The position numbers and the translations under genes were made by a program. Source: Syntrophobacterales bacterium (GTDB lineage: Bacteria > Desulfobacterota > Desulfobaccia > Desulfobaccales > 0-14-0-80-60-11). Taken from it: 34,706 nt of DNA. The notes beneath the pieces are model-generated. The model saw only the letters and a list, made by a program, of their open reading frames with translations. It had not been told where the DNA came from and searched no databases. The stretch spans positions 1 through 34,706 of the forward strand of contig JAGVAH010000020.1 of assembly GCA_020060385.1 (NCBI GenBank), written 5' to 3'. Within the stretch, counting starts at the first letter, position 1; each line of letters opens with the position of its first letter. Positions 34,076 to 34,706 of this stretch are shown here, piece after piece.

Positions 34076-34150
34076 GCTGGCGTAGCTCAATGGTAGAGCG
34101 GCTGATTTGTAATCAGCAGGTTGCGGGTTCGAGTCCCATCGCCAGCTCCA
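34076..34150 (+). tRNA. tRNA-Thr (anticodon UGU)
   Basis: Full cloverleaf with CCA encoded: acceptor GCTGGCG/CGCCAGC, D-arm GCTC...GAGC, anticodon stem GCTGA/TCAGC around TTTGTAA, and T-loop TTCGAGT. It is the first of four tRNAs, as thrU is in the E. coli thrU-tyrU-glyT-thrT-tufB operon. Confidence 0.97.
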
Positions 34151-34173: not shown

Positions 34174-34258
34174 GGAGAGGTTCCCGAGCGGCCAAAGGGG
34201 ACGGGCTGTAAACCCGTTGGCTCAGCCTTCGGAGGTTCGAATCCTCCCCTCTCCACCA
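34174..34258 (+). tRNA. tRNA-Tyr (anticodon GUA)
   Basis: Class II tRNA with a long variable arm, CCA encoded. Acceptor GGAGAGG/CCTCTCC, anticodon stem ACGGG/CCCGT around CTGTAAA, extra arm near TTGGCTCAGCCTTCGG. Second position in the cluster, matching tyrU. Confidence 0.97.
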
Positions 34259-34282
34259 TTTTCCCAAGTCAGGCGGGAAACG

Positions 34283-34358
34283 GCGGGAATAGCTCAATGG
34301 CTAGAGCATCAGCCTTACAAGCTGAGGGTTGCGGGTTCGAGTCCCGTTTCCCGCTCCA
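34283..34358 (+). tRNA. tRNA with glycine-type body but valine anticodon (UAC)
   Basis: Complete cloverleaf: acceptor GCGGGAA/TTCCCGC, D-arm GCTC...GAGC with loop AATGGCTA, anticodon stem TCAGC/GCTGA around CTTACAA, T-loop TTCGAGT, CCA encoded. The anticodon is UAC, so it would read GUA (Val) codons. Yet the body looks like tRNA-Gly: U73, G1-C72, C2-G71, G3-C70, an AATGGCTA D-loop as in E. coli glyT, and the third slot of a Thr-Tyr-Gly-Thr-tuf cluster. E. coli glyT has CTTCCAA here, so one base (C to A at position 35) separates the two. The tRNA gene call is firm; its amino acid is open. Confidence 0.93.
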
Positions 34359-34365
34359 GCAACGG

Positions 34366-34442
34366 GCCCACGTAGCTCAGTAGGTAGAGCACTTCCTTGG
34401 TAAGGAAGAGGTTCACCGGTTCGATCCCGGTCGTGGGCTCCA
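34366..34442 (+). tRNA. tRNA-Thr (anticodon GGU)
   Basis: Full cloverleaf with CCA encoded: acceptor GCCCACG/CGTGGGC, anticodon stem CTTCC/GGAAG around TTGGTAA, T-loop TTCGATC. Fourth in the cluster, the position of thrT before tuf. Confidence 0.97.
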
Positions 34443-34607: not shown

Positions 34608-34706
34608 ATGGCCAAGAAGAAGTTTGAGCGTAAGAAGCCGCATGTGAACGTAGGCACCATTGGGCATATCGACCACGGGAAGACCACCTTGACCGCGGCC
34701 ATTACC
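34608..34706 (+). CDS. tuf: Elongation factor Tu, N-terminal fragment (window edge)
   Basis: First 33 codons of EF-Tu, the GTPase that brings aminoacyl-tRNA to the ribosome. [20 protein letters not shown] followed by [13 protein letters not shown] contains the complete P-loop (GHIDHGKT; most EF-Tu have GHVDHGKT). GGAG lies eight bases before the ATG. The 165-base spacer after the last tRNA contains a CAACCTTAAGGTTG palindrome (about 34521-34534). The gene runs off the right edge; cotranscription with the tRNAs is likely by analogy with tufB. Confidence 0.97.

Follow-up and report, generated by a model that had tools for sequence, protein, structure and literature searches.

The window (one whole contig of 34,706 bp, G000:C146, from an assembly of 4.15 Mb in 175 contigs) carries a glycine-bodied tRNA gene with a UAC anticodon in the glyT position, the third slot of a Thr-Tyr-Gly-Thr-tuf cluster. 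We consider it probable that this locus is an ordinary, single-copy tRNA-Gly(UCC) gene, and that the A at tRNA position 35, instead of being fixed in the species, came from an error in the consensus or assembly, or from a minor strain variant that the consensus captured. A glycine tRNA with a valine anticodon is most likely not a genuine biological feature here. Cells of the living population presumably carry a gene with UCC that decodes GGA (and GGG) as glycine, and sequencing reads would be expected to show C at the site, alone or mixed with A.

Features of the tRNA-tuf cluster in the window
Feature	Position	Strand	Basis
tRNA-Thr(UGU), cluster gene 1	34076..34150	+	ARAGORN (TGT) and relatives' loci
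tRNA-Tyr(GUA), cluster gene 2	34174..34258	+	ARAGORN (GTA) and relatives' loci
Leader repeat GGCGGGAAAC	34272..34281	+	genus-specific near-copy of the tRNA start
tRNA-Gly(UCC) body with anticodon UAC, cluster gene 3	34283..34358	+	ARAGORN call tRNA-Val(TAC); sequence, covariance model, relatives, alignment
tRNA position 35	34317..34317	+	A in this assembly; C in every relative examined
tRNA-Thr(GGU), cluster gene 4	34366..34442	+	ARAGORN (GGT) and relatives' loci
tuf, first 99 nt	34608..34706	+	sequence; identical to the end of contig C153

The gene reads GCGGGAA TA GCTC AATGGCTA GAGC A TCAGC CTTACAA GCTGA GGGTT GCGGG TTCGAGT CCCGT TTCCCGC T CCA, with every stem pair present and an Rfam tRNA covariance model score of 74.3 bits; its anticodon is U34 (34316), A35, and C36 (34318). 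Glycine identity in bacteria depends on U73, G1-C72, C2-G71, C35, and C36, and valine identity on A35, C36, and A73, with G20 and G45 as minor elements (PMC9976931). Sequence and alignment both show the full glycine acceptor set (U73, G1-C72, and C2-G71), and the departure from the glycine identity elements, seen in this assembly only, is A35. The gene has the A35 and C36 of a tRNA-Val(UAC), but U73, C20, and a glycine acceptor stem rather than A73, G20, and a valine-type acceptor stem, features in which the genome's regular Val-UAC differs from it in the alignment. The first-pass annotation, which had described a glycine body with a valine anticodon in the glyT position, is borne out by the sequence, by ARAGORN, by the covariance model, and by the cluster annotation here and in relatives; it was also right that the change touches glycine and valine identity elements, with C35 lost and U73 kept.

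We searched 59 relatives with this gene, fetched the loci of 29, and re-annotated the returned loci with ARAGORN. A tRNA-Gly(TCC) occupies the orthologous slot ahead of tuf in all 29, with the same neighboring tRNAs, save that ARAGORN does not report the first Thr gene in one locus. (The window's tRNA-Thr(UGU) has a T-stem mismatch, C50-A64, that is kept in nearly all of the relatives read.) The genes of four same-genus genomes share 75 of the 76 bases and are identical to this one except for C at position 35, as the first-pass annotation had surmised in proposing a single C35-to-A change, and alignment of the cluster shows this to be the sole base of the tRNA at which the assembly departs from all four. 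A pattern built on the glyT body, validated on the window and relatives and then run on the order, on species genomes, and on viral contigs, finds C35 in all 24 of the relatives in the order that match with any base allowed there; A occurs only in this assembly. Relatives with a regular Gly-UCC in the slot, and this assembly as the lone exception, is the very pattern that the first-pass annotation had named as telling against its own reading.

The same pattern, which is strict, returned two non-C35 matches from 84,980 species genomes; this is the number scanned, and an upper bound on the number that the pattern could test. One match, from Geodermatophilus, gets no tRNA call from ARAGORN, resembles a 3' fragment, and was rejected. 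The other, in a Chloroflexi metagenome-assembled genome (MAG; JAPOPA010000368.1, positions 188-262 of the fetched locus), has a Gly-GCC-type body with a GCA (Cys) anticodon created by one C-to-A change, and no further Gly-GCC or Cys-GCA is present among the 30 tRNA loci read from that MAG. No second C35 variant of the glyT body was found among the species genomes as sampled by this strict pattern. A phage or viral origin was likewise rejected, as the pattern found no C35 variant in viral contigs, and the full-length phage matches listed are at most 81.6% identical.

The leader upstream of the gene is peculiar to the genus. The tandem near-duplication noted in the first-pass annotation, GGCGGGAAAC and GGCGGGAATA, is real and is present in all five genus genomes read (this assembly and four others), and is absent from the other genera that were read. 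GGCGGGAAAC is predicted to pair with GTTTCCCGC on the 3' side of the tRNA, with predicted fold energies of -36.9 kcal/mol for leader plus tRNA and -29.3 kcal/mol for the tRNA alone; in such a model, pairing with the 3' acceptor strand could compete with the mature tRNA fold. The repeat has no visible bearing on the anticodon.

The assembly contains Gly-GCC and Gly-CCC together with regular Val-UAC (contig C110) and Val-CAC genes, and its tRNA inventory holds no other Gly-UCC; the relatives each have one Gly-UCC pattern match. Gly-CCC is identical to that of two same-genus genomes, and Gly-GCC is identical to that of one and differs from the other at one D-loop base, so that, relative to these two genomes, neither has a compensating anticodon change. 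Seven tRNAs present in at least one of two relatives are missing from the assembly (Ile-GAU, Ala-UGC, Arg-UCU, Val-GAC, Thr-CGU, Pro-CGG, and Ser-CGA); the inventory is thus incomplete, and a second Gly-UCC could strictly lie unassembled, which would ease tolerance of a real change and weighs against the error reading. In an elongator-type tRNA-Met (G000:C56:4115-4187), the encoded CCA end found in two same-genus genomes is missing (ACTTGG), which may reflect an insertion or an assembly junction at the end of the tRNA.

Codon usage was compared between about 107,000 codons of this assembly and two relatives. GGA, used at about 11 per 1000 codons, makes up 12.5% of glycine codons here, versus 12.3% and 13.4% in the relatives. 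At sites where both relatives have GGA, 12 are kept and 12 are changed here (11 of them to other glycine codons), and GGA has been gained at 12 sites at which the two relatives agree on a different glycine codon. Reading of GGA as glycine has thus been maintained until the recent past. Glycine positions of the relatives match GUA here at only 1 of 1894 and 0 of 1700 sites, and there is no trace of glycine at GUA codons. GGA use is unchanged and glycine positions have almost never turned to GUA, which makes an old, fixed switch very unlikely; no lineage shares the change, and it has left no mark in codon use. What remains is either a very recent change or an artefact.

A second anomaly in the assembly bears on this choice. 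When all of its tRNAs were compared with those of two relatives, only one other change at an invariant site was seen, a C56A in tRNA-Gln(UUG) (G000:C134:25686-25759), which reads TTAGAAT for TTCGAAT; all other Gln tRNAs matched in the order carry TTCGA there. This tRNA is the only reader of CAA in the assembly. Both A35 and C56A are therefore C-to-A changes in single-copy sole readers, and they lie 389 nt and 201 nt from contig ends, respectively. A healthy cell could hardly be expected to carry both lesions at once.

The properties of the assembly itself are mixed in what they suggest. The contig stops inside tuf, and its last 99 nt, from the exact tuf start codon, are identical to the beginning of C153 read on the opposite strand. 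Such a 99-nt identity at a duplicated tuf is the expected result of a cut in a k=99 de Bruijn graph, and from it we infer that this is most likely a short-read, k=99 assembly. In vitro oxidative damage is known to produce G>T/C>A artefacts (PMC12390751), and may have played a role in A35. Against the error reading, C>A is not in excess on the assembly's lineage (10.4% versus 10.7% and 11.9%), private differences are no more frequent near contig ends than elsewhere, and internal stops are few in a gene comparison that was filtered because the unfiltered version was dominated by shadow ORFs; several of the stops still listed resemble leftover shadow ORFs or gapped starts. These comparisons give no sign of a high general error rate in the assembly, and do not support a general loss of accuracy at contig ends. 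The absence of a C>A increase also led us to reject a mutator strain of the mutY/mutM type.

Nonetheless, several considerations together favor an error or minor variant. First, the body, the synteny, the C35 of all relatives, the unchanged codon use, and the lack of a compensating tRNA-Gly all point to a glycine gene. Second, a lone C-to-A change also affects the sole-reader tRNA-Gln(UUG) of the same assembly, and the altered base lies close to the end of a contig in what is most likely a short-read, k=99 assembly. Third, the strict-pattern scan of species genomes yielded no other C35 variant of this body, and the only similar C-to-A oddity is in a MAG. Among the three options offered by the first-pass annotation, sequencing error is favored, whereas a remoulded tRNA-Val and a missense tRNA did not gain support.

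The strongest competing explanation is that A35 is a real, recent, non-adaptive mutation in the sequenced strain, making the gene a predicted missense tRNA. In E. coli, glyT mutants whose anticodon has been altered survive but read GGA poorly, and mutA and mutC are altered tRNA-Gly genes, present in multiple copies, with an Asp anticodon. The intact state of the gene save for one base and the lack of a general error load are consistent with such a mutation, and selection in yeast yields single anticodon changes that alter tRNA identity, which sequenced genomes are also reported to contain (PMC8092322). If real, the tRNA would probably be a poor substrate for both synthetases, judging from its identity elements: charging by GlyRS would be weakened by loss of C35, and charging by ValRS would be weak with U73 and C20 in place of A73 and G20. 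Whichever amino acid was loaded, Gly or Val, would enter at GUA and GUG codons, and GGA would be poorly read and left to near-cognate tRNAs. The GGA reader of E. coli is glyT (PMC7461829). Given a special body, other glycine tRNAs can wobble more widely (PMC10853795). A real mutation, however, would leave a codon in regular use without its sole cognate reader, with no compensation seen in the other tRNA-Gly genes, and would have to coincide with the lesion in the tRNA that alone reads CAA; we therefore regard it as unlikely, if still a serious candidate. That the bacterium has truly lost its only GGA-cognate tRNA, with a near-cognate tRNA-Gly reading GGA and Gly/Val ambiguity tolerated at GUA, seems to us highly improbable. 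Least credible is a fixed remoulding in which the glycine tRNA was functionally recruited to valine and other glycine tRNAs read GGA, since, although the main valine determinants A35 and C36 are present (PMC9976931), a Mycoplasma mycoides tRNA-Gly body carrying GCC can support the decoding of glycine codons in vitro (PMC10853795), and Val-GAC is absent from the assembly, a regular Val-UAC already exists, U73 and C20 are retained with no shift toward valine identity, codon use is unchanged, and the pattern scans find the change in no other species.

If the UAC anticodon were true, a wild cell would be living with no cognate GGA reader and with Gly/Val ambiguity built in. The error or minor-variant explanation that we prefer instead carries a caution, as one odd base in a single-copy tRNA gene of a draft assembly can pass for a change in the code; inspection of the same slot in relatives, of codon use, and of the other sole-reader tRNAs offers a quick check. 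Comparison with known systems places the gene in context. Like the missense and mutator tRNA-Gly genes of E. coli (altered glyT; mutA and mutC), it has a glycine body in which one anticodon base is changed to that of another amino acid; those cases are genetically proven, and mutA/mutC multi-copy, whereas the change here is a putative one, is in a single-copy sole reader, and is to valine. In anticodon switching and tRNA remoulding during genome evolution, one anticodon base similarly alters the predicted amino acid (PMC8092322, PMC7661048), but here the switch is absent from every relative examined, the assembly shows no second, normal copy, and the identity elements have not moved. The closest likeness is to the bacterial tRNA-Gly(UCC) encoded by glyT of thrU-tyrU-glyT-thrT-tufB, with which it shares the body, U73, the acceptor pairs, the order of the cluster, and its place before tuf, and from which it differs, in this one assembly, in having UAC rather than UCC as its anticodon.
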